The notes under the pieces are model-generated. The model ran no database searches, was not told the DNA's origin, and saw nothing but the letters and a program-made list of their open reading frames with translations. Source: Halopiger goleimassiliensis (GTDB lineage Archaea; Halobacteriota; Halobacteria; Halobacteriales; Natrialbaceae). Taken from it: DNA of 64,000 nt. Positions 15,855-40,390 of the stretch are shown in pieces. Location of the stretch: positions 248,001-312,000 of the forward strand of contig NZ_HG315690.1 in NCBI RefSeq assembly GCF_000455345.1, in the 5' to 3' direction. Numbering within the stretch: the first letter of the stretch is position 1; each line of letters starts with the position of its first letter. The translations under genes were made by a program, and so were the position numbers.

Positions 15855-17882
15855 TCAGGCCAGCCACTCCTCGGGTTTGGTGTCGTAATCGACGTCGTCG
15901 GCCGCGAGGTGTTCGACTTCTTCCCACGGAACGTCTTCGACGGTCACCTCGTGGCCGTCGTACCGGATGAGTTTTCCGCGCTCTTCGGGTTCGGGTTCAC
16001 GGTTCCGGCGTTTCGCGACCTCGACGTCGTGTTCGTTGACCTCCTTGACGATCGTCAGCAGGTTCACCGGCCGACCCCAGAGTTCGAAGATCCGCTTTAA
16101 GGTCTCTTCGGCCTGGCCGAGGTCGAGCATGACGCCGTTGTACTGGTGGCCAAGCAGGAGTTCGTTGGCGTTGTTGTAGTTACCGTCGTAGACGGCGATC
16201 GTCGGCTTCCCGAAGTTGGTGAACTGCAGGAGGAGTTTCTTCTTGACGTCCTCGGCGGCATCGCTCGCGACGTGGAACTGGCCGGTCGCCTTCGAGTGCT
16301 CGTAGGTGAAGTAGTTGTTCTCGGTGATGAACTCCTCCGTGAGGAACTCGTCGAGGAACGTCACGTCGTTGTGGCTCTCGCGGACGTCGAACATCCGATC
16401 CCAACCCGCAGTGAACTCGACGTCGTCGAGCGCCTCCTCGACGCTCGAGTATCGGGCGTCGTCGAACAGGTAGCGCCCGATCCGTTCGAGTTCGTTCTGG
16501 CTGACGCGCGCGAGGAAGCCGCGGTGCTGGGGCTTGACCAGCGAGTAGTGACGGCGGGCCAACCCCTCGTAGGTCAGCACCTTCCAGGGATAGCGCTCGA
16601 GGTCGATCTCGCCGTCTCGAGCCGCCTCGAGCGCCGCCTCGTCGACCCAGGCGTCGGGAACCGACTCGAGTTCGTCGAGCGTCTCGGGCGTGATGACGTC
16701 GATCGCTTCGGGTGGCTCGAGCGCCGCGAGCACGTCCTCGAAGTCGACGACCTCGGCGAGGTTGCGCCAGGAGATGCCCTCGACGCGGAGCAGTCGCTCG
16801 AGGACCTCCTGTCGGTTCGTCGTGTTCTCGACGTACTCCCACAGTTCCATGCCGAGGCTGTAGGGGTTGAGACCGCCCGAGGCCAGCACTTTTGCCATGT
16901 GATCGGCGTAGTTCATGAACTCGTCGTCGCCGGCGAAGGCCTCGTCGGTCATCATCGTCGACTCCCAGTAGGCGGCCCACCCTTCGTTCATCACCTTCGT
17001 CATCTTCTGGGCGGCGAAGTAGTAGGCTTCCGCGCGCATCATGTCGAGGACGTCCCGCTGCCAGTCTTCCATCTCGACCGCCCGCTCGCTCTTGCCGTCG
17101 TACTGCTTGCCGTGTTCGCGGACGAACGCCAGCAGGTCCTTCTGTGGCTCCTCGGGGAAAGTGACGTTCTCGCCTTCCTCCTCGAGTTTCTCGAGCCACT
17201 CGTCGTCGAACACCTCGCCTTTGATCTCGTCGGAGAGTTCGAGTTCGTCGAGTTTCTCCGCGAGGTCCTCGTCGACGTTCTCGGCGGGTCCTTCGACGTC
17301 GAGGCGGCGTTCGAACACCTTGTGCTGGTCGATGTTGTCCTCGAGCGAGAGACAGTGGTCGATCCACTTCTCGACCTCCGCGCGATCGATCTCGGGATCG
17401 GACATGTAGTCGTCGATCGCCCGGGCGTGGCGCTCGAGCATGGCCGCGGCGTTGACCTGTTCCTCGTCGGCGCGGCCGTCAGTGAACAGGCCGAACCACT
17501 CGTTGTTCGCGAAGAAGTCCGAGTGGGCCTCGACGTGGGTGATCACCGCCTTCTGGTCGGCGATCGTGTTCGACTCCTGCAGGAACGCGTGGGCCGGGTT
17601 GTCGTTGTTGACGATCTCGAAGGCCTTGCCGCCGGTGTACTGGCCCTGTTTCTGCTGGCGGTCGTACTGCATGCCCCACCGCCAGTGGGGGTACCGGGAC
17701 TGGAACCCGCCGTAGGCGATGAGTTCGTTCATCTCGTCGTAGTCGATGATCCAGTAGTTCACCGGGTAGGGCTCGAGCCCCAGTTTCCGGGCGAGGTTCC
17801 TGGCTTCCGTCACCGGTTCCTCTAAGTCGCCGGCGATCGCCTGTTTGCGGAATCGATCCGCGTTGGAGTTGCGTTTACTCAT
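15855..17882 (-). CDS. SpoVR family protein
   Basis: A 675-residue SpoVR/YcgB-like protein. The N-terminal part has [28 protein letters not shown] with [12 protein letters not shown], and later [15 protein letters not shown] and [14 protein letters not shown], all strongly conserved in Spo[25 protein letters not shown] segment follows near residue 300. Its biochemical activity is not established; in bacteria it is co-expressed with the PrkA kinase and DUF444 protein in starvation and sporulation. The gene is the last of prkA-prkA-DUF444-spoVR, and its ATG overlaps the DUF444 stop by 8 bases. Confidence 0.95.
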
Positions 17883-19200
17883 CGGTCTCACCCTCCGTGG
17901 AGAGGATCTCGTAGATGGCGTCGGTGACGTCGTTCTCGTCGTTGACGTAGGCCACCGCGACGTCGTCGGCGTCCGTTCCGAAGTGTCGCTCCAGTTCCTC
18001 GGCGTGTGTGGCGTTGATCGCGTTGCCGCTGGGCTGGGTCTCCACGTAGGCGTGGAGGTTGGCGTCGATCTCCTCCATCATGGGGATGACGCGCTCTTCG
18101 GTGTCGTTCGAGGAGTTCTCCGAGTCGCCCGCGGCGAAGACGTAGCGGTTCCAGTCGCTCCAGGGGTACTCCTCGAGCAGTTCGGCGGCGAGTTCGTAGG
18201 CGCTCGAAATCTTCGTCCCGCCGCCGCTGCGGATGCCGAAGAACTCGTCGCGCTCGACCTCCCAGGCGTCGGCGTCGTGGGCGATGTAGACGAACTCGGC
18301 GTTGTCGTACTTGCCCTGGAGGTACCAGTCAAGCGGCGTGAACGTCCGCTCGACGAGTTCGCGCTTCTTCTCGCGCATCGAGCCGGAGACGTCGCGGATG
18401 TTGACCACGACGACGTTCTTCTCCTTCTCCTCGATGATCTCGGGGTGGCGGTAGCGCTCGTCCTCGCGGCGGAAGGGGACGTGATCGATCCCCTCGCGGC
18501 GGATCTTCTGCTGGACGTCCTCGCGCTCGACGTTGTTCTCGACCTCCTCGATCGAGTCCCACGTCCCGCGCTCGTCGTCGGGGATCGCGTCGTAGGCCTC
18601 CTCGATCCAGGCCATCGAGACCGGCAGATTTTCGCCGCGGGCCCACTCGAAGACCTCGCGGGGGGCGATTCCCTCGACCTTGCAGAGTTCCCGCAGGAAG
18701 TCCTCGTCGAAGTCCATCGCGAGTTTCCGCTTGAGCCCCTCCTTGAACATCCGCTCGAAGTCGAGCGTGCTGTTGGGACCCGTTCGGGTGAGGTCGGTGT
18801 AGGGACCTTCCTTCTCCTCGATGACCTTCTTGCCCTTCGGATCGAGGTCGAGGCCGAGTTCCTCGTCGAGTTCCTCGGCGAACTCCTCGGGATCCATCTC
18901 GTAGTACTCGTGCTCGCCGCCCTCCTCGCCGGGTTCGCCGTCCTCGTCGCCGTCGCCCGGTTGGGGCTGTGGCTCGCCGACCGGCTGGCCGGGCTGGGGG
19001 GTGCCGTCCTCGCCCTGGCCGACGCCACCCATGTCGCGTTGATCGTACTCGAACTCGGGCAGCGAGACGATCTTGACCGGGATCTTGATCTCGCCGGGAC
19101 GACTCTGGCCGAGGTCGCCGTACTGGATGAAGTCGGCCAGGTCCTCGCGGCGCTTCTCGCCGACCTCGCGGAATCGCTCGAGGTCGTCTCTCAGTCCCAT
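17875..19200 (-). CDS. DUF444 (YeaH/YhbH) family protein
   Basis: A 441-residue protein of the YeaH/YhbH family. The N-terminus has a basic/acidic helical stretch and a Gly/Pro/Glu linker near residues 60-105. The C-terminal half is a von Willebrand A-like domain with the MIDAS-type motif RDVSGSM preceded by VVVVNI, and a later [15 protein letters not shown]. In E. coli yeaH forms an operon with the yeaG (PrkA) kinase and is thought to work with it in nutrient stress. Here it lies between prkA and spoVR, 55 bp downstream of the second kinase. Confidence 0.94.
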
Positions 19201-19255
19201 CCGCGGTCACCTCCCGATCGCGTGCTCGTACCCGTCGCCGTTCCGTACGTGACTG

Positions 19256-21541
19256 TCAGTCCCATCTGTAGCTCACCTGTCCCATGACGTGTCTGCTGGT
19301 CAGTTCGGCCGACGCCTCGCTGTAGTCGAACTCCGAGACCATCGTCTCGATCGTCGATTCTTTGACGCTTTCCGTCTCCGTCCCGCTCGGCGGGTCGTCC
19401 CACTGGCGCGGGTCGAAGTCCTCGAAGGTGCGCCGCACGTCGTCCCAGTCGTGGCTCTCGAGGACGGCCTTGATGACCGGGATCGCCGTCAGGTCGACGT
19501 CCTCGACCGAGAAGTCCTCGTTGCGGTGTTCCCACGCGTGGCGATTGAGCGAGGTGATCACCTTCTCCCGGCGGAAGTTCCGGACGCTCTCGCGGGGAAG
19601 GTTCCCCTCGTAGTCGTCCTCGGAGAACCGGCCGAGGTGTTCGACCTCGAACAGCTTCATCTTCAGCGGATCCGGTTCGACCCGCTCGCCGCGGTCGTTG
19701 TACAGCGGTTCGTCGGTCTCCCACGCGTAGACGTGTTCGACGTACTCGGCGACGGTTTCCTCGTCGACGCGTTTCTCGTGCATGATCGCCTCGATGACGT
19801 CGGCCTCCTGCCGGTCGTAGATGTAGTTTTTCACCGGCACCACGCGGTTCTCGAACTCGGAGCGTTCGCCGGTCGAGAACACCGGTGCCTCGGCCAGTCC
19901 TTCGGCCATCGCGTTCAGCACGTCGCGAGGCATGACGACGTCCTCGACGGGCAATTCGGCGTGGTGGCGGTCGCGGTCGGTCTGGACGAGTTCGCCCAGC
20001 GTGTCCCGGGTGTAGGTGACCGGGATGCCGTGATCGCCGTCCGCCCCGTCGTCGTCGAAGTCGAACTCCTCTTTCTCGCGACGGGTGTCGCCTTCCCGGA
20101 GGTAGCCCTGGTCGTAGATGAGCGCCTTGTCGACCAGATCCAGGCCGTTGGGGAGGTCCCCCTCGTCGAGGCGCGTGACGACCGCGTACAGGGCGGCCGC
20201 CTCGATGGCGTGGGGCGCGAACTCCTGGGTTCGGGTCGTTCCGTCCTGGTCCCGCACCGTGACCGTCACCGGCTGACGGATGCGCTGTTCGAGTTCGTCG
20301 TAGGTGTCTGCCTCCCAGACCTGCGTCTCGTTGGTCAGCTCCCGCCGGATCAGTTCGCACTCGAGGCTGAGATTGGTGAGGTAGCCAAAGCGGTGTTTGT
20401 CCAGCCGACGCTTCAGCGCCTTCAGCGGGTCCGTCCCGTTGCGGTCGGCGTGCTGGTTCAACTGCGCCTCGAGGTCGGGGTTCGAGATGATCAACAGCTG
20501 CGTGTCGACGTCCATCCCGATGCCCTTATCCAGTTTCACTGACTGCTCGTCGGGGACGTTCAGCAGTTTCTGCAGGAGATCGGCGTGCTGGGCGGCGTCC
20601 TCGACGATGGTGAGGACGCCGTTGCCCTGCGAGAGGACGCCGTCGTAGCTGAACGCCTGCGGGTTCTTGCGCCCGCGGGAGTCGAGTTCCTGGAGCATGC
20701 CGTGCATCCAGGAGCCGACGAGCCGTTCCTTGGGGCGGCCGTCGTCCTCGCTGTGGAGGACGCCGACGCCCTGGCCGACGTCGACGACGTAGTTTTTGAC
20801 CCGGAGGTGGCTGTCGTCCGTGATCGCCGAGAACAGGTCCGATTCGCCCTCGCGGCGGTAGCGCTCCTCGAGGTACTCGTAGGCCTCGCGGGAGAACGGA
20901 TCGAGGTCGGCGTCGACCTGGAGCGGGACGTGGTCCTCGAGTTCGGCGTTGAGGTCCGCGAGAATCTCACGACGGATCTCCTCGGGAAACACCGACAGCG
21001 GGTGGGTCTGTACGGGGCTCTCGTACCAGTTCCTGTCGTCGCCGGCCGTCGGGTCGCCGCCGTAGCTCAGGCCGCGGTCGTCGGCCTCGGCCGTGGTTAC
21101 GTTCCACTCGACCGTGTAGCGCCGTCCTTCGGGCGTCTTCGAGTACTCGCGGAGGCCGTTGACGAGACAGCGCTTGAGTTCCGACTTGCCCGTCGCCGTG
21201 GGACCCTCGAACCAGATGATCTTCTCGTCTTTCGCCCGACCGGCGGCGATCGACCGCAGGTCGTCGACGAACCGGTTCAGCACCTCCGTGTTGCCGAGGA
21301 TGGCGTGTTCGCCGTCGTTGTGGGGGTCGTCGAAGAAGCGATACCGCTCTTTCTCCTCGCCCTCCTCGACGACCGTCCGGGTGCCGGCGGCCTCGATGGC
21401 CTCGAGCAGGTACTTCGAGGCGTGGGAGGCGATCGTCGGGTTCTCGAAGATCCGATCGACGTACGCCGCGAGGCTCATCGGCTCCTCGTAGGTCTCCTCT
21501 AACGTGCGGTCGGCCTCGGTGACGTAGTCGTCGCCGGTCAT
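19256..21541 (-). CDS. PrkA-type serine protein kinase (second paralogue)
   Basis: A 761-residue PrkA family protein: an N-terminal AAA+-like ATPase and a C-terminal PrkA kinase domain. The Walker A is GPTATGKS (residues 113-120), preceded by IIWFEG. A Walker B-like GVLTIVEDA and sensor region LLIISNPDLEAQ follow. It is 70 residues longer than its upstream neighbour and clearly diverged. E. coli PrkA (YeaG) acts in nitrogen starvation; substrates in archaea are unknown. Its start is 20 bp after the stop of the first prkA gene, so both are co-transcribed. Two different kinases may form a heteromer. Confidence 0.93.
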   Translation of the reverse strand: MTGDDYVTEADRTLEETYEEPMSLAAYVDRIFENPTIASHASKYLLEAIEAAGTRTVVEEGEEKERYRFFDDPHNDGEHAILGNTEVLNRFVDDLRSIAAGRAKDEKIIWFEGPTATGKSELKRCLVNGLREYSKTPEGRRYTVEWNVTTAEADDRGLSYGGDPTAGDDRNWYESPVQTHPLSVFPEEIRREILADLNAELEDHVPLQVDADLDPFSREAYEYLEERYRREGESDLFSAITDDSHLRVKNYVVDVGQGVGVLHSEDDGRPKERLVGSWMHGMLQELDSRGRKNPQAFSYDGVLSQGNGVLTIVEDAAQHADLLQKLLNVPDEQSVKLDKGIGMDVDTQLLIISNPDLEAQLNQHADRNGTDPLKALKRRLDKHRFGYLTNLSLECELIRRELTNETQVWEADTYDELEQRIRQPVTVTVRDQDGTTRTQEFAPHAIEAAALYAVVTRLDEGDLPNGLDLVDKALIYDQGYLREGDTRREKEEFDFDDDGADGDHGIPVTYTRDTLGELVQTDRDRHHAELPVEDVVMPRDVLNAMAEGLAEAPVFSTGERSEFENRVVPVKNYIYDRQEADVIEAIMHEKRVDEETVAEYVEHVYAWETDEPLYNDRGERVEPDPLKMKLFEVEHLGRFSEDDYEGNLPRESVRNFRREKVITSLNRHAWEHRNEDFSVEDVDLTAIPVIKAVLESHDWDDVRRTFEDFDPRQWDDPPSGTETESVKESTIETMVSEFDYSEASAELTSRHVMGQVSYRWD

Positions 21542-21561
21542 GTTAGTCGCCCTCGATCATG

Positions 21562-23634
21562 TTACTCGTCCATCTCCGCTTTGGCGACCTCCGCGCCGGC
21601 GAACTCGAGCACTTCCTTGGCCCCTTCCTCGGAGTAGCCCTGTTCCATCAGCGCGTCGATCCAAGCGGAGCGCTCGTCGTCGTCGAACTCGTTGGCGCTG
21701 ACCAGCGCGGAGAAGTTGATGTTGTGCTTCTTGTCCTCCCAGAGCTTGCGCTCTAACGCGCGGCGCAGGCGCTCGTTGTCCTGCGGGTTGAACGCCTCGC
21801 CCTCGCGGGCGCGCCGGGAGACCCAGTTCGAGACCTCCTGGCGGAAGTCGTCCTTGCGATCCTCGGGGATGTCGAGTTTCTCCTCGACCGAGCGCAGGAA
21901 CGTCTCGTCGGGCTCCTGTTCCCGCCCGGTCAACTCGTCCTCGATCGTGTCGTCGTCGATGTAGGCCATGACGTGGTCCATGTATTTCTCGCCCTGGCGC
22001 TGGATCTCGTCGACGTCGTAGGCCAGCGCGTGGCGGACGTCTTCGATGGCGCGCTCGCGGTACTCCTCGCGGACCGTCTCGAGGTAGCGGTAGTACTTCT
22101 CGAAGTTGTCCTCCGGAATGGAGCCGTGGTGCTCCAAGTTCTCCTCGAAGAAGTTGAACACCGTCAGCGGCGAGAGGAAGCCGCGACTGCGGTGTTTCGA
22201 GTCCATGATGGCTTCGGCGATCTCGTCGCCGATGAACCGGGGCGAGACGCCGACCATGCCTTCACCGATCTCGGCCTTCTGGGCGGCCTCCTCGCGGAGT
22301 TTCTTGACGTCGATGTCGTCGCCCTCGTCGATCTCGCCGTTGTAGGCTTTGGCCTTCGAGAGCAGATCGACCGTCTCGGCGTCGGGTTCCTCGATCCGCG
22401 TCAGAACGCCAAAGAGGCCCGCCATCTCGAGCGTGTGCGGCTCGACGTTGATGTCGGGGACGTCGGCGTTCGAGAGCATCTTCTGGTAGATCTGGGCCTC
22501 GTCCTCGTAGGAGAGGACGTACGGGAAGTCGATCCGCTTGGTGCGGTCGTTGAACGCCTCCATCTTCTCGTCGCCCTTCTTGTCCTTGTACTCGGGCATG
22601 TTGGTGCGGCCGACGATCACCTGGTCGATGTCGATCCGGGGGTTGTTCTTCGGCTTGATCGTCTGCTCCTGGGTGGCGTGGAGGAAGTCGTAGAGGAACT
22701 CCCGCTGGAGCTTGAGCAGCTCTTCACCGCTGAAGATCCCCCTGTTCGCGTTACAGAACGCCCCCGAGTAGTCGAACGCGCGCGGGTCGCTCTCCCCGTA
22801 GATGGCGATCTTGGAGTAGTTGACGTCGCCGGTGAGTTCGGTCTCGTCCTGGTTCTTCTTGTCCTTGGGTTCGAACGTCTCGATCCCCTGGCGCTTGTTC
22901 TCGTCGGCGACGAACCGGACGATCTCGACGTGATTTTCGAGGACCTGCTGGAGGTCGTCGTCGTAGTACGCCAGCAGTTTGTCCATGTAGAACTCGCTCT
23001 CGGGATCGAGCGCCTGTTCGTTCTGGATCGTGTAGGGGGCCTCGAGCCGTTCGTTCAGGTCGTCGAGCACCGACTGGCGCTGCTCGAGGGGCAGCAGGAC
23101 CAGCGGGTCCTGGTTCATCGGCGACCGGACGGTGTCGTCCGCCGGATCCTGGTCCTGGATGACGTCACAGAGGTTCGTCCACCGGAAGGTGTACATCCGG
23201 CCCTCCTCTCGCAGGGTGTAATCCTCGAAGTACCGACGGACCTGCTTGTCGAAGTGGGACTTGCCCGACCCGACCGGCCCGAGCAGGAGTTTGATCCGCC
23301 GTTCCGGTCCCAGGCTGCGAGCGCCCGATTTCACCTTGTTGACGAACTCGTGGATCGACTGGTGGATCACCCGGCCGTAGAAGGTGTTCTCCCCGTCGTG
23401 TAACGGGTCTTCGCTGGCCAACCGGTACTCGACGACGCCCTCCGTCTCGTCGTAGGTCGTCCCGTAGTAGTCGAACATGTCCGCGACCCGCTGGTGGGCG
23501 TTGCGGGCGACTTTCGGGTCCTCGTAGCAGGTCTCGAGGTACTCGTCGAACGATTTCGTCTCCCGCAGGTCCGCGGGCATCGATTCCTTGTATTCGGTAC
23601 TGAGCTTCTCGAGCGTCTCGATGTCACCGGTCAT
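21562..23634 (-). CDS. PrkA-type serine protein kinase (first paralogue)
   Basis: A 690-residue PrkA family protein. YLETCYEDPKVARNAHQRVADMF is the conserved N-terminal PrkA block and LLLGPVGSGKS (Walker A, residues 119-126) the nucleotide site. The region NRGIFSGEELLKLQREFLYDFL and the Asn/Thr-rich VIVGRTNMPEY match the AAA core. The ATG at 23634 (MTGDIETLEKL) was chosen because upstream in-frame codons are Arg/Pro/Thr-rich and look untranslated. First gene of the four-gene kinase operon, with an unusually long candidate leader of about 300 nt. Confidence 0.94.
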   Translation of the reverse strand: MTGDIETLEKLSTEYKESMPADLRETKSFDEYLETCYEDPKVARNAHQRVADMFDYYGTTYDETEGVVEYRLASEDPLHDGENTFYGRVIHQSIHEFVNKVKSGARSLGPERRIKLLLGPVGSGKSHFDKQVRRYFEDYTLREEGRMYTFRWTNLCDVIQDQDPADDTVRSPMNQDPLVLLPLEQRQSVLDDLNERLEAPYTIQNEQALDPESEFYMDKLLAYYDDDLQQVLENHVEIVRFVADENKRQGIETFEPKDKKNQDETELTGDVNYSKIAIYGESDPRAFDYSGAFCNANRGIFSGEELLKLQREFLYDFLHATQEQTIKPKNNPRIDIDQVIVGRTNMPEYKDKKGDEKMEAFNDRTKRIDFPYVLSYEDEAQIYQKMLSNADVPDINVEPHTLEMAGLFGVLTRIEEPDAETVDLLSKAKAYNGEIDEGDDIDVKKLREEAAQKAEIGEGMVGVSPRFIGDEIAEAIMDSKHRSRGFLSPLTVFNFFEENLEHHGSIPEDNFEKYYRYLETVREEYRERAIEDVRHALAYDVDEIQRQGEKYMDHVMAYIDDDTIEDELTGREQEPDETFLRSVEEKLDIPEDRKDDFRQEVSNWVSRRAREGEAFNPQDNERLRRALERKLWEDKKHNINFSALVSANEFDDDERSAWIDALMEQGYSEEGAKEVLEFAGAEVAKAEMDE

Positions 23635-36276: not shown

Positions 36277-36525
36277 ATGTCGGACAACCCAGGGACCGGT
36301 CCATCGGAGGAAGTCCCCGTCGAACGCAGGGACCTGGTCGTACTCGCGGTCGTTTCGGTCGTCGGCGGCGTTCTCGTCTCGAGTTGGCTGGTGACGCCGG
36401 GGCTGACGCCACAGTACATCCAGGGGATCTTCGTCGGCGCGTGTCTCACGGCGTTTTTCCTCTTCATCCCGGTCATGGGCGCACGGCTGTTCATCGACGA
36501 CTGGCGGAACGAGAGCGACGAGTAA
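36277..36525 (+). CDS. Small two-helix membrane protein
   Basis: An 82-residue protein with two predicted transmembrane helices, about residues 20-41 (LVVLAVVSVVGGVLVSSWLV) and 49-70 (IQGIFVGACLTAFFLFIPVMG), with an acidic N-terminus and DDWRNESDE tail. A strong TATATAT at 36249-36257 lies about 25 nt upstream, so the transcript is leaderless. It converges on the hyperacidic gene cluster, ending 41 bp from its last gene. Family not recognised; it could be unrelated to the cluster or a membrane partner of it. Confidence 0.8.
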   Translation: MSDNPGTGPSEEVPVERRDLVVLAVVSVVGGVLVSSWLVTPGLTPQYIQGIFVGACLTAFFLFIPVMGARLFIDDWRNESDE

Positions 36526-36566: not shown

Positions 36567-37439
36567 TCAGCCGTTCCTGTCCGGCATCGTCGAATGTCGG
36601 GCCGTGCCTTTCATATCCGGACGCTTCGAGGGCGGCGGTGCCATCGTCGAGTGACGGACGACGCCGCGCGAACTCGAGCGCCGGTCGTCACCACCGACGT
36701 CCATTCCGAGGAGTCCGTCGTCTTCGTCCGGTTCGTCCCCGTCGTCCGACGCCTCCCCCTCGCCGTCTTCATCGCGTTCCCCGTTCGACTCGGTATCCGA
36801 CCGCGCCGCCTCGAGTCGATCGCGCAGCCCCTGCATCTCGTCGCCGAACTCCGTGAGACTCGACTCGAGCGCCGACCCGAGAGCGTCGCCGAGATCGGAT
36901 TCGTCCTCGTCTCCCCCCTCGTCCGATCCAGTCACTTCGCCGGCGATCGTATCGATCAGGGAGCCGTCTTCTTCCTCCTCTTCCGCCGGCGTTTCGGACT
37001 CGTCGCCCGCCTCGTCAGTCTCGGTTTCGTCGGATTCCGTCTCGTCTCCGGCTTCGTCACCCGTCTCGCCGTCGGCCTCGGTCCGCTCGTCGTCGACGTG
37101 CTCCCGAAGCGTTCCCGCCGTCGCTTCGAGCGATTCCTCGTCCGCCGTCTCGGTCAGTTTCGCGAGGTGCAGGAGTCGGTTCAGTTCTTCGAGATCCTCG
37201 TCGTCGCCGCGAGCGATCGCTTCGGGGATCGAGTCGGGTTCGCTCCCGTCGGGCAGCGTATTCAGTCCCACCGCGTCGAGAATCTCCTCGGGAGCGTTCG
37301 ATTCGAGGAACTCGCTGGCCCGGGCGGCCGTCTCCTGAAGGGACGGGCCGCTCCCGTCGTCCGCCGAGACCAGTGATCGGGTCGATCGATCGGCGTCCTC
37401 GAGGATTTCGGTTACCTCTTCGTGTGTGTTCTGAGTCAT
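36567..37439 (-). CDS. Hyperacidic protein with C-terminal RHSTM repeat (cluster gene 4)
   Basis: A 290-residue protein of unknown function. Residues about 1-100 form a folded-looking helical region (ETAARASEFLESNAPEEILDAVGLN; EELNRLLHLAKL). The middle is a Glu/Asp/Thr/Ser low-complexity linker, with two islands: GSLIDTIAGEVTGS and DLGDALGSALESSLTEFGDEMQGLRDRLEAA. The C-terminus turns basic and contains two copies of RHSTM, joined by a Pro/Lys/Arg stretch (APPPSKRPDMKG), a striking contrast to the acidic body. Last gene of four in the same direction. No signal peptide or membrane helix. Could be a scaffold or client-tagged protein. Confidence 0.75.
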   Translation of the reverse strand: MTQNTHEEVTEILEDADRSTRSLVSADDGSGPSLQETAARASEFLESNAPEEILDAVGLNTLPDGSEPDSIPEAIARGDDEDLEELNRLLHLAKLTETADEESLEATAGTLREHVDDERTEADGETGDEAGDETESDETETDEAGDESETPAEEEEEDGSLIDTIAGEVTGSDEGGDEDESDLGDALGSALESSLTEFGDEMQGLRDRLEAARSDTESNGERDEDGEGEASDDGDEPDEDDGLLGMDVGGDDRRSSSRGVVRHSTMAPPPSKRPDMKGTARHSTMPDRNG

Positions 37440-37491
37440 GGTATAGCGCGTTCGAGTACCGGGGTCCGATCGCCGTCGAAGGCGAGCGGCG

Positions 37492-38412
37492 CTAACTCGC
37501 TTCGGCCGCTTGCTCCGAGTCGTCCTCGCCCTCGTCGTTCTCGTCGGCGACCGTCTCGACGATCCGCTCGGTCATCTCCTCGCGACTGAGATTGGCCTTG
37601 ACGCCGACGTCCTTGGCCACCGACTGGAGGTCCTGGTAAGACATCACCCCGAGGAAGTCCTCGAGGGTTTCCCGTCTGAGGTCCGCGATGTCTTCGGCGG
37701 ACGGTTGGGAGCCCTCGCCCGCTGCTTCCGCCGTATCGTCGGCATCGGACTCGTCTTCCGCTGCCTCGGTTTCCTCGCTCGGTTCGTCTGCATCGGTCTC
37801 GTCCACGTCGCTCTCGTCCGCCGACTCGTCCTCGGCCGGTTCCGCTTCGGCGGCGTCCTCCTCGAGTTCGTCCTCGTCGTCGGAATCGCCGTCTACCTCC
37901 GCCTCGTCGCCGCTGACGGCGTCGGTAGCGTCCGCGGCGGCCCCGCTGACGCCCTCTGCGACCGACTCCGCGGCGTCTCGAGCGCTCTCGGCCGCGCCAC
38001 TCGATTCTTCGTCGCCCGCTTGGTCGCTCTCCGTGCCGACGTCAGTTTCGACGAGTCCCTCCAGCCCCTCTCCCTCGGTGACGGTCCCGGCGAGGGATTT
38101 GACCGACTCCGTCGCGTCGCTCTCCGTGAGCGTCTCGCGGAACGCGTCCCGAATCGCCGACGCGAGATCCGACTGGATCTCGGAACGGCTCTTCTCGGCT
38201 TCGAGTCCCTCCTCGAGGGTTTCGTGGATCGCGCGACCGATCGCCGTCCCCAGTTCGCGCCCGACGCGTTCGCCGAGTTGGCGGCCGACCGCCGCACCGA
38301 CTTCGCCGCCGTCGATGCTCTCCTCGATGCTGCCGTCGCCCAGCAGATCGGACACCTCGAGTTGGTCGCTGACCTCCTGGGCCACTAACGCTCTGAGTCC
38401 GTCCTCACTCAT
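37492..38412 (-). CDS. Hyperacidic protein with glycine zipper and Rho-N/SAP-like tail (cluster gene 3)
   Basis: A 306-residue protein. Near residues 30-60, GGEVGAAVGRQLGERVGR and the following GTAIGRAI have Gly every fourth or third residue, a glycine-zipper that is also seen in the neighbouring gene 38473-39036. A second helical island reads QSDLASAIRDAFRETL. A roughly 130-residue Glu/Asp/Ser/Ala low-complexity linker follows. The C-terminal 55 residues, including MSYQDLQSVAKDVGVKANLS and EEMTERIVETV, resemble the Rho-N or SAP/LEM nucleic-acid-binding helix pair. Unknown family; unusual combination of oligomerising helix and possible DNA-binding tail. Confidence 0.75.
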   Translation of the reverse strand: MSEDGLRALVAQEVSDQLEVSDLLGDGSIEESIDGGEVGAAVGRQLGERVGRELGTAIGRAIHETLEEGLEAEKSRSEIQSDLASAIRDAFRETLTESDATESVKSLAGTVTEGEGLEGLVETDVGTESDQAGDEESSGAAESARDAAESVAEGVSGAAADATDAVSGDEAEVDGDSDDEDELEEDAAEAEPAEDESADESDVDETDADEPSEETEAAEDESDADDTAEAAGEGSQPSAEDIADLRRETLEDFLGVMSYQDLQSVAKDVGVKANLSREEMTERIVETVADENDEGEDDSEQAAEAS

Positions 38413-38472
38413 CGGGCTCACCTCGAGCGACGGGCCGGAAATCGGCCGGGACGTCAGTTGGCAGTTCCATCG

Positions 38473-39036
38473 TTACTCCTCCTCGGATTCCGATTCGTCG
38501 GAATCCTCCGCCGAGTCCGACGACTGCTCGGTGTTCTCCTCCGATTCGGACGATTCCTCAGTTTCGTCGTCCTCCGTCCCGTCCTCCGCAGATTCTTCCC
38601 CGGCGTCTTCGGCGGATTCCTCGTCGGCTTCTTCGTCGGTCTCCTCGCCGGCGTCCTCGGCTTCTTCCTCGGCCCCCTCCTCGTCCGTCTCCTCCTCGAG
38701 TTCGTCTTCTTGGGCCTCCTTCTCGAGATCTTCCCCCTCGGACTCGTCCTCGAGTTCCTCTTCCTCGGCCTCGGCTTGTTCCTCGGATTCCTCCTCGGCT
38801 TCGTCGGCACCGAGCAGTTCGTCGACGACCATCTTGCCGATCGTCCGCCCGAGGTTCTCGCCGACCTTGCGGCCGATCATCGCTCCGATCTGCCCCCCGA
38901 GAGCCGCCCCCAGAGGTTTGTCCTCGTCGATCTCGTCCTCCCACTGGGTACCCTCGATCAGGTTCTGGACGTCGACGTTCTCGGTGATCTTCTCGTAGTC
39001 GATTCGCTGGGCCACGGTTTCGCCTTCGTCGCTCAT
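38473..39036 (-). CDS. Hyperacidic protein with glycine zipper (cluster gene 2)
   Basis: A 187-residue protein. The first 75 residues hold the ordered part: AQRIDYEKITENVDVQNLIEG, then LGAALGGQIGAMIGRKVGEN and LGRTIGKMVVDELL, a glycine zipper paralogous to that in gene 37492-38412. The remaining 110 residues are almost only Glu, Asp, Ser, Ala and Thr, with the repeats EEAEDAGEE and EESAED. No signal peptide. Glycine zippers pack helices in membranes or in amyloid-like assemblies. Gene starts 2 bp downstream of the preceding gene's stop, so the pair is co-translated. Confidence 0.75.
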   Translation of the reverse strand: MSDEGETVAQRIDYEKITENVDVQNLIEGTQWEDEIDEDKPLGAALGGQIGAMIGRKVGENLGRTIGKMVVDELLGADEAEEESEEQAEAEEEELEDESEGEDLEKEAQEDELEEETDEEGAEEEAEDAGEETDEEADEESAEDAGEESAEDGTEDDETEESSESEENTEQSSDSAEDSDESESEEE

Positions 39037-39038
39037 CG

Positions 39039-40253
39039 TTAGGCTGCCTCCTCCGCTGCATCCGGTTGCTCGCCGTTACCTGCCCCTTCGTCCGGCTCGA
39101 GCTGATCGATGAGTTGCTCGAGCACCTGGCTGACGATCGTCGAGACGATCTCCTCGGTCGGGAAACTCGGTACGAGCCCGCCGAGCAGGTCCTTCATCCA
39201 GCCCGCGAGCCTGGCGAGCGGACCCTCCGACTCGCTTTCTTCCTCGGACTCGTCCTCTTCGGCCTCTCCTTCGGCTTCCTCGGCTTCGTCTTCCGACTCC
39301 TCGCCGTCGGGTTCCTCGGCCTGGTCACCGCCAAACAGCCCGCGGAGCCACGACACCGGCTTGCCCAGAATCGATCGGATCCAGCCGGCGACTCGAGAGA
39401 TGACGCCTCCGGATTCCGACTCTTCGTCTCCCTCTGCGCCCTCGTCGCCACCGATACCCAGCAGCTGGGTGAGCCACTCCTTGGCCTTCCCAGGTGCCGC
39501 CTTGAGTAGCTCCAGGGGCTTGGCGAGCAGTGATTTCGCTTTGTCGAGCATCGCCCCGGGGCCGTCGAGCAACCCGGTCACCGCCGACAGGAGGTTCCCG
39601 AGCAGGTTGTTCCCGCCGGGCCTGGCCGAGACGTCGAGCGTCACGGGATTCAGATTGACCTCGAGACCGAGCAGGTCGAGGAAGAGTCCGTCGAGATCGA
39701 GGTGGAGGACGCCGGATGCGTCGTCACCTTCGTAGACCTCCTCTGCGTCGTCGGCGTGGCCCTCCTCGCGGTCGTCCTCGGCCTCTTCCTCCTCCTCGGT
39801 TTCGGCTTCGTCCTCGGCCTCTTCCTCCTCTTCCTCTTGCTCGGTTTCGGCTTCGTCCTCGGCCTCTTCCTCCTCTTCTCCTTCTTCGATTTCGGCTTCA
39901 TCTTCGCCCTCTTCGTCGACCGCTTCCTCCTCTTCTCCCTCCTGCTCTGTTTCGGCCTCGTCTTCGGGCGCTTCGTCGGCTTGCTCGTCCTCCACTTCAG
40001 CTTCGTCTTCGGTCCCTTCGTCGGTTGCTTCCTCGCTCTCGGCTTCCTCGTCGGCTGCCTGGTCCTCGGCCTGGGCGTCTTCGGCCCCTTCGTCCTCGTC
40101 CGGCTCGGACATCTCCGCCTGTCCGCCGTCAGTTAGAACCGTGAGTTCCGAGTCGGTCGCCTGATCGTCCACCTGACAGTCACTCGAGGCGTCGCCGACT
40201 GGCACGGAATCGGGACACTCCTCGGCGCTGTCATCTCCTAGGTCCGCTGTCAT
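39039..40253 (-). CDS. Hyperacidic protein with amphipathic modules and LDLDGL domain (cluster gene 1)
   Basis: A 404-residue protein. After an N-terminal TVLTDGG motif comes a 130-residue Glu/Ala/Asp/Thr repeat with a 15-residue period. Next is a conserved-looking module, VLHLDLDGLFLDLLGLEVNL followed by VTLDVSARPGGNNLLGNLLSAV, a pattern I have also seen in small secreted bacterial proteins of unknown function. Four amphipathic helices with Trp follow (AKEWLTQLLGI; VAGWIRSILGKPVSWLRGLFG; LAGWMKDLLGG; IVSQVLEQLIDQL) separated by acidic linkers. It has two Cys in the N-terminus and no signal peptide. First gene of the cluster. Confidence 0.78.
   Translation of the reverse strand: MTADLGDDSAEECPDSVPVGDASSDCQVDDQATDSELTVLTDGGQAEMSEPDEDEGAEDAQAEDQAADEEAESEEATDEGTEDEAEVEDEQADEAPEDEAETEQEGEEEEAVDEEGEDEAEIEEGEEEEEAEDEAETEQEEEEEEAEDEAETEEEEEAEDDREEGHADDAEEVYEGDDASGVLHLDLDGLFLDLLGLEVNLNPVTLDVSARPGGNNLLGNLLSAVTGLLDGPGAMLDKAKSLLAKPLELLKAAPGKAKEWLTQLLGIGGDEGAEGDEESESGGVISRVAGWIRSILGKPVSWLRGLFGGDQAEEPDGEESEDEAEEAEGEAEEDESEEESESEGPLARLAGWMKDLLGGLVPSFPTEEIVSTIVSQVLEQLIDQLEPDEGAGNGEQPDAAEEAA
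39796..39885. repeat. 45-bp tandem repeat inside hyperacidic gene
   Basis: The block starting TCGGTTTCGGCTTCGTCCTC at 39796 recurs at 39841, a 45-bp (15-codon) period with near-identity through about 37 bp. It encodes the Glu/Ala/Asp/Thr repeat of the protein at 39039-40253. The shift by whole codons keeps the frame, so copy number can vary by slippage. Less exact copies extend to about 39960. Confidence 0.75.
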
Positions 40254-40390
40254 TATACGAAAACGCCACGTCCGTGAGCGTTGTGGTGGTTGTCCTTGCG
40301 TGTGCGACTGTCGAATGCGGGATCCTGTCAGAAACTGATCGACCCCGATACCGGTCGTTGCGGTTAGGTCCCGGGCTGTAGTTCAAAACG

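Follow-up and report, generated by a model that had tools for sequence, protein, structure and literature searches.

Four acidic genes and their conservation

The window analyzed in this study is a 64,000-nucleotide stretch of the 3.9-Mb genome of Halopiger goleimassiliensis, in which an earlier note had described four adjacent leftward genes for hyperacidic proteins. The genes, here designated A, B, C, and D, were found in place (Table 1), and their composition was confirmed: aspartate and glutamate constitute about 30-38% of the residues in the four families, and lysine and arginine 4-8%. A and B are separated by 2 bp in the window, and in the family loci this junction is usually a 4-bp overlap. 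The joint conservation that the note had proposed as a check on its own reading was observed; the same order and strand recurred in 19 of the 20 fetched family neighborhoods, which indicates that A-D are real genes and not chance open reading frames. In the remaining neighborhood (L074), A and D alone were called. The genes flanking the cluster varied from genus to genus, and A-D therefore forms a coherent unit. The membrane protein with two helices at 36277-36525, previously suggested as an anchor, falls outside this unit because homologues were located nearby in just 4 of the 39 clustered neighborhoods, the window included.

The A module was detected in 86 of 101 Natrialbaceae genomes, representing 26 of 29 genera, and its nearest named relatives belong to Natrialbaceae such as Natronorubrum and Natrinema. 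The C tail was likewise detected in 86 of the 101 genomes, a set differing from that of A in two incomplete genomes only. A tblastn search of plasmids with A returned no match. Scans of the A-D proteins against Pfam and NCBIfam yielded nothing significant, and the four gene families, present in more than 100 sampled genomes, have no curated model. A description of A-D was absent from the family libraries and from the open literature searched. Elsewhere in the window, a run of four genes was noticed at 15855-23634 that resembles a PrkA-type kinase/SpoVR group.

Table 1. Genes and features of the A-D locus, in coordinates of the window
Feature	Position	Strand	Description and evidence
Gene A	39039-40253	-	404 aa; acidic tail at the N-terminus, hydrophobic beta module, amphipathic repeats of 11 residues, C-terminal helix (conserved)
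Gene B	38473-39036	-	187 aa; glycine zipper within the N-terminal domain, plus an acidic tail
Gene C	37492-38412	-	306 aa, ATG start; glycine-zipper N-terminal domain, acidic linker, SAP/Rho-N-like tail
Gene D	36567-37439	-	290 aa; GvpI paralogue by hhalign
Conserved element upstream of A (GCACACGCAAGGACAACCACCACAAC)	40280-40305	-	Kept before most family A genes
Hydrophobic module of A, residues 181-238	39540-39713	-	Most conserved part; four strands and a helix predicted
C-terminal helix of A, residues 366-385	39099-39158	-	Conserved; alignment and model
Glycine zipper of B, residues 41-75	38812-38916	-	Sequence; weak resemblance to Pfam glycine zipper, below cut-off
Glycine-zipper helix of C, residues 35-71	38200-38310	-	Single long helix, pLDDT about 85-95
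SAP/Rho-N-like tail of C, residues 239-294	37531-37698	-	Three helices, pLDDT about 87-94
GvpI-like N-terminal domain of D, residues 32-118	37086-37346	-	Trimmed hhalign, probability 98.7%, E 2e-16
RHSTM-repeat tail of D, residues 255-290	36570-36677	-	Trimmed hhalign, probability 97.8%, E 7e-13

Between the acidic linkers, the following ordered parts named in the note were found: D has its RHSTM repeats, C has its SAP/Rho-N-like tail, and the glycine zippers and the LDLDGL module are likewise present. All of these are conserved. Protein A was modeled using AlphaFold2 with moderate confidence (mean pLDDT 62). The hydrophobicity of A has a period of 11 residues, with an autocorrelation of 0.32 compared with -0.02 +/- 0.01, and the signal recurs at 22 and 33 residues. 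Helices built of 11-residue repeats are known to lie on hydrophobic surfaces. A Foldseek search with the A model returned no hit, and the idea that the hydrophobic module imitates the GvpA beta-hairpin was rejected at a profile-comparison probability of 0.1%. The hydrophobic module is also present in 'LLGNLL' proteins of haloarchaea (loci L102 and L103) and of Salipaludibacillus, a member of the Bacillota (L223 and L225); however, these proteins carry export signals as judged by eye, hold the module at the end or inside, and do not adjoin gvp genes. The module alone is therefore no marker of gas vesicles.

B and C have an N-terminal glycine-zipper domain in common (hhalign probability 98.6%). 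The Foldseek neighbors of the C tail were SAP, DEK, and Rho domains, superimposing at approximately 1 A rmsd over 42-45 residues, with none at E <= 0.001, and weak Rho_N matches were obtained for 3 of 35 C-family members, no member being confident. The tail is a candidate SAP/Rho-N-like fold, and the rest of C is without a recognizable nucleic-acid-binding feature. No other gene in the fetched loci was found to carry the C tail.

Gene D and GvpI

Comparison of the D and GvpI families using hhalign yielded a probability of 99.6% (E 1e-24, 247 columns). Because acidic linkers could inflate this whole-length score, trimmed regions were also compared, and both the N-terminal domain and the tail of D matched GvpI (Table 1). 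The A, B, and C families, which are just as acidic and served as negative controls, remained below 1% probability. A single pairwise BLAST of D against GvpI was weak (E 0.003), as expected of distant paralogues. On profile comparison, D is a GvpI paralogue in its N-terminal domain and RHSTM tail, and the RHSTM repeats can therefore be identified as the tail signature of GvpI. The earlier note could name no family for the four proteins; this stands for A, B, and C and fails for D.

D shares its N-terminal domain and RHSTM/STVP repeat tail with the long form of GvpI; however, it adjoins A-C and is without the 'RIYGRRF'-type end of many GvpI tails. Genomes carrying D also retain GvpI. A 2012 genome paper notes this form in Natrialba magadii and Haloterrigena turkmenica and records GvpC as absent from N. 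magadii (PMC3403918); the A-D cluster is not mentioned in that passage.

Distribution relative to gas-vesicle genes

We searched for gvpA (PF00741) in the same genomes as A, comprising a Natrialbaceae sample (n = 101), a class sample (n = 194), and their union (n = 252). The results revealed gvpA in 89 of the 101 Natrialbaceae genomes, among them all 86 with A, and 12 of the 15 genomes without A were also without gvpA. In the class sample, A was present in 64 genomes and gvpA in 78, and every genome with A (64/64) carried gvpA. Across the union of haloarchaeal genomes, 110 held both, none held A only, 17 held gvp only, and 125 held neither (Fisher p 1e-53, relatedness ignored); such p-values overstate independence because the sampled genomes are related. 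At least four genera (g6, g7, g9, and g10) include members in which A and gvp genes are jointly missing, although one or both are otherwise present in the genus, and A and gvp genes were found together in many genera beyond Natrialbaceae.

In the class sample, the C tail occurred in the same 64 genomes as A and in two further genomes, G250 and G118. The former keeps gvpA together with a decaying A-D cluster (locus L235, 6805-9198), in which 88 codons remain of A and D is apparently frame-disrupted. The latter, a 1.9-Mb haloarchaeal genome, has no cluster and carries the tail fused to the C-terminus of an apparent ribosomal protein S3 (locus L234, 8223-9170). This fusion in a cluster-less genome indicates that the C tail is a mobile domain and that it is the cluster that follows gvp.

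The location of A pointed in the same direction. Thirteen of the 78 named A loci adjoin at least three gvp genes, and A occupies four different positions across these 13 loci. In Halocatena and others, it lies inside the gvpF-M operon, with gvpH and gvpI on its two sides; in Halalkalicoccus and Natronosalvus, it is downstream of gvpO; in Halohasta, it is convergent to gvpO; and in Halococcus, it comes after gvpM. Besides other genera, two Natrialbaceae genomes have A within or beside a gvp cluster, and in the fetched loci many A homologues outside Natrialbaceae have gas-vesicle genes as neighbors. Repeated placement at differing points of one gvp cluster speaks for function. In H. goleimassiliensis, the gvp locus lies approximately 1.28 Mb from A-D and consists of gvpO-gvpN-gvpA and gvpF-G-H-I-J-K-L-M, without gvpC. 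A-D occurs with gvp genes only, and these are mostly encoded elsewhere in the genome. The gvp system is well known; the A-D protein families are undescribed. In four loci (L087, L089, L090, and L104), a gene of 111-117 aa was noticed between gvpO and A, its product having two CxxC pairs and looking zinc-ribbon-like on inspection by eye; it is possibly another undescribed gas-vesicle gene.

These distributions also bear on the possibility that A-D coats polyhydroxyalkanoate (PHA) granules or forms a condensate unrelated to gas vesicles, for which acidic linkers and amphipathic helices would be fitting; acyl-CoA synthetase genes are located near A-D in the window. PHA synthase, examined as a control, was present in all 15 Natrialbaceae genomes without A and missing from 20 genomes with A; unlike gvpA, it has no such relation to A, and the candidate phasin-like coat was rejected on this count. 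The embedding of A-C in gvp clusters and the kinship of D with GvpI also contradict such a role, which we consider very improbable. The self-assembling intracellular structure envisaged in the earlier note gains support from the gas-vesicle link, but not in the form of a free-standing condensate or envelope layer.

The element upstream of A is located some 55 bp before the A start in most family members. Its resemblance to the gvpA upstream region, first noticed by eye, is no more than suggestive: with a matrix built from gvpA upstream regions alone, the regions before A scored higher than background (Mann-Whitney p 3e-6, the orthologues not being independent), but the window's own site reached only the top 10% of background. 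The element has a single site in the host genome, and its use as a genome-wide regulon motif was rejected.

GvpC, which normally strengthens the shell of these flotation organelles from its outer surface, was sought in the same genomes with a profile derived from eight haloarchaeal GvpC proteins. It was detected in 9 of the 17 genomes with gvp but not A, compared with 1 of the 110 genomes with A (p 1e-8, relatedness ignored). The only genome of the sample in which A coexists with a GvpC match (G035) contains six gvpA-family genes, as expected of two gvp clusters. Six further gvp-positive genomes had neither A nor GvpC, and neither is therefore always needed. In seven inspected loci with gvp but not A, no divergent A-B-C genes were recognized; in one gvp-positive genome without A (G223), a small glycine-zipper gene was observed near gvpM.

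The near-exclusive distribution is one of three likenesses between A-D and GvpC, all of them pointing to similar working. The second is the amphipathic repeats of A, although those of GvpC span 33-40 residues (PMC9372576) and those of A 11. The third is a divergent GvpC in genome G006, the tail of which resembles the C tail (E 4e-5 in this one comparison, with 36% identity across 47 residues). Neither A nor C is a GvpC homologue (hhalign probability 0.1% for each), and D had no profile homology to GvpC. A Natrialbaceae GvpC at locus L123 (11684-12934) was also seen to end in a C-like tail instead of the Halobacterium-type zinc-finger end.

According to a review, gvp clusters without gvpC and gvpDE occur in several of these haloarchaeal genera, and the gvpC-less species that it names were not seen to form vesicles (PMC4390858); no mention of a second cluster such as A-D was found in this review. 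The lack of gvpDE would leave room for a regulatory A-D that replaces GvpD/GvpE, with the SAP/Rho-N-like tail of C, the same tail that is carried by the apparent S3 protein of G118, binding nucleic acid. However, A and B are without DNA-binding features and D is related to GvpI. Moreover, locus L123 has GvpC but neither A nor a called gene of gvpDE size, and this one case suggests that the exclusion tracks GvpC rather than gvpDE. We therefore regard a regulatory role as quite improbable.

Proposed role of the A-D proteins

The strict co-travel of A-D with GvpC-less gvp genes suggests that the four are probably overlooked gas-vesicle accessory proteins. We propose, with a probability of roughly 0.9 on the sequence evidence, that A-D is a previously undescribed module that acts as an accessory to the gas vesicles of haloarchaea. 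The results that bear directly on this proposal are the co-occurrence with gvpA, the embedding in gvp clusters, the near-exclusion of GvpC, and the homology of D and GvpI. We give roughly an even chance to the narrower proposal that A-D is a functional substitute for GvpC; the gas-vesicle link is well supported, and the replacement of GvpC is plausible.

As such a substitute, A-D would supply the outer-coat or late-assembly functions performed by GvpC in other haloarchaea. A may use its hydrophobic module and 11-residue amphipathic repeats to bind the GvpA shell and form an outer coat, as GvpC does elsewhere; this shell-coating role is suggested by sequence features and by the pLDDT-62 model. 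B and C might oligomerize through their glycine zippers, thereby linking A molecules or an assembly complex, and the acidic tails could act as a brush that keeps the coat soluble at molar salt. D would serve as a second GvpI, a protein that limits vesicle length in Halobacterium, where GvpI loss results in longer vesicles and GvpC loss in fragile, egg-shaped ones (PMC4390858). GvpC uses its C-terminal part to contact GvpH, GvpI, GvpN, and GvpO (PMC9372576).

The chief rival to a GvpC-replacing coat is that A-D acts early, in a nucleation or chaperone complex similar to GvpF-L or GvpH-I. GvpI, of which D is a paralogue, forms a heterodimer with GvpH (PMC9501494), and in Halocatena and others the gvpF-M operon carries A, along with B/C, in the interval from gvpH to gvpI. 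The near-exclusion of GvpC and the surface-type amphipathic repeats favor a coat, neither being decisive, and we consider the early role a real possibility at somewhat below even odds.

A shell that lacks GvpC and bears an acidic coat of A-D might also be a second gas-vesicle-derived compartment, employed for a purpose other than ordinary buoyancy or made under special conditions only. Most Natrialbaceae retain A-D although such species were not seen forming vesicles, which would fit this interpretation, but we consider it unlikely.

As a probable accessory module of gas vesicles, A-D provides a likely role for four gene families without a curated model. It also gives the gvp clusters without gvpC and gvpDE a partner, mostly encoded elsewhere in the genome, and thereby makes the puzzle of the missing vesicles testable. 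Because GvpC is an important handle in gas-vesicle engineering, A-D may offer new shell-surface proteins for that purpose.
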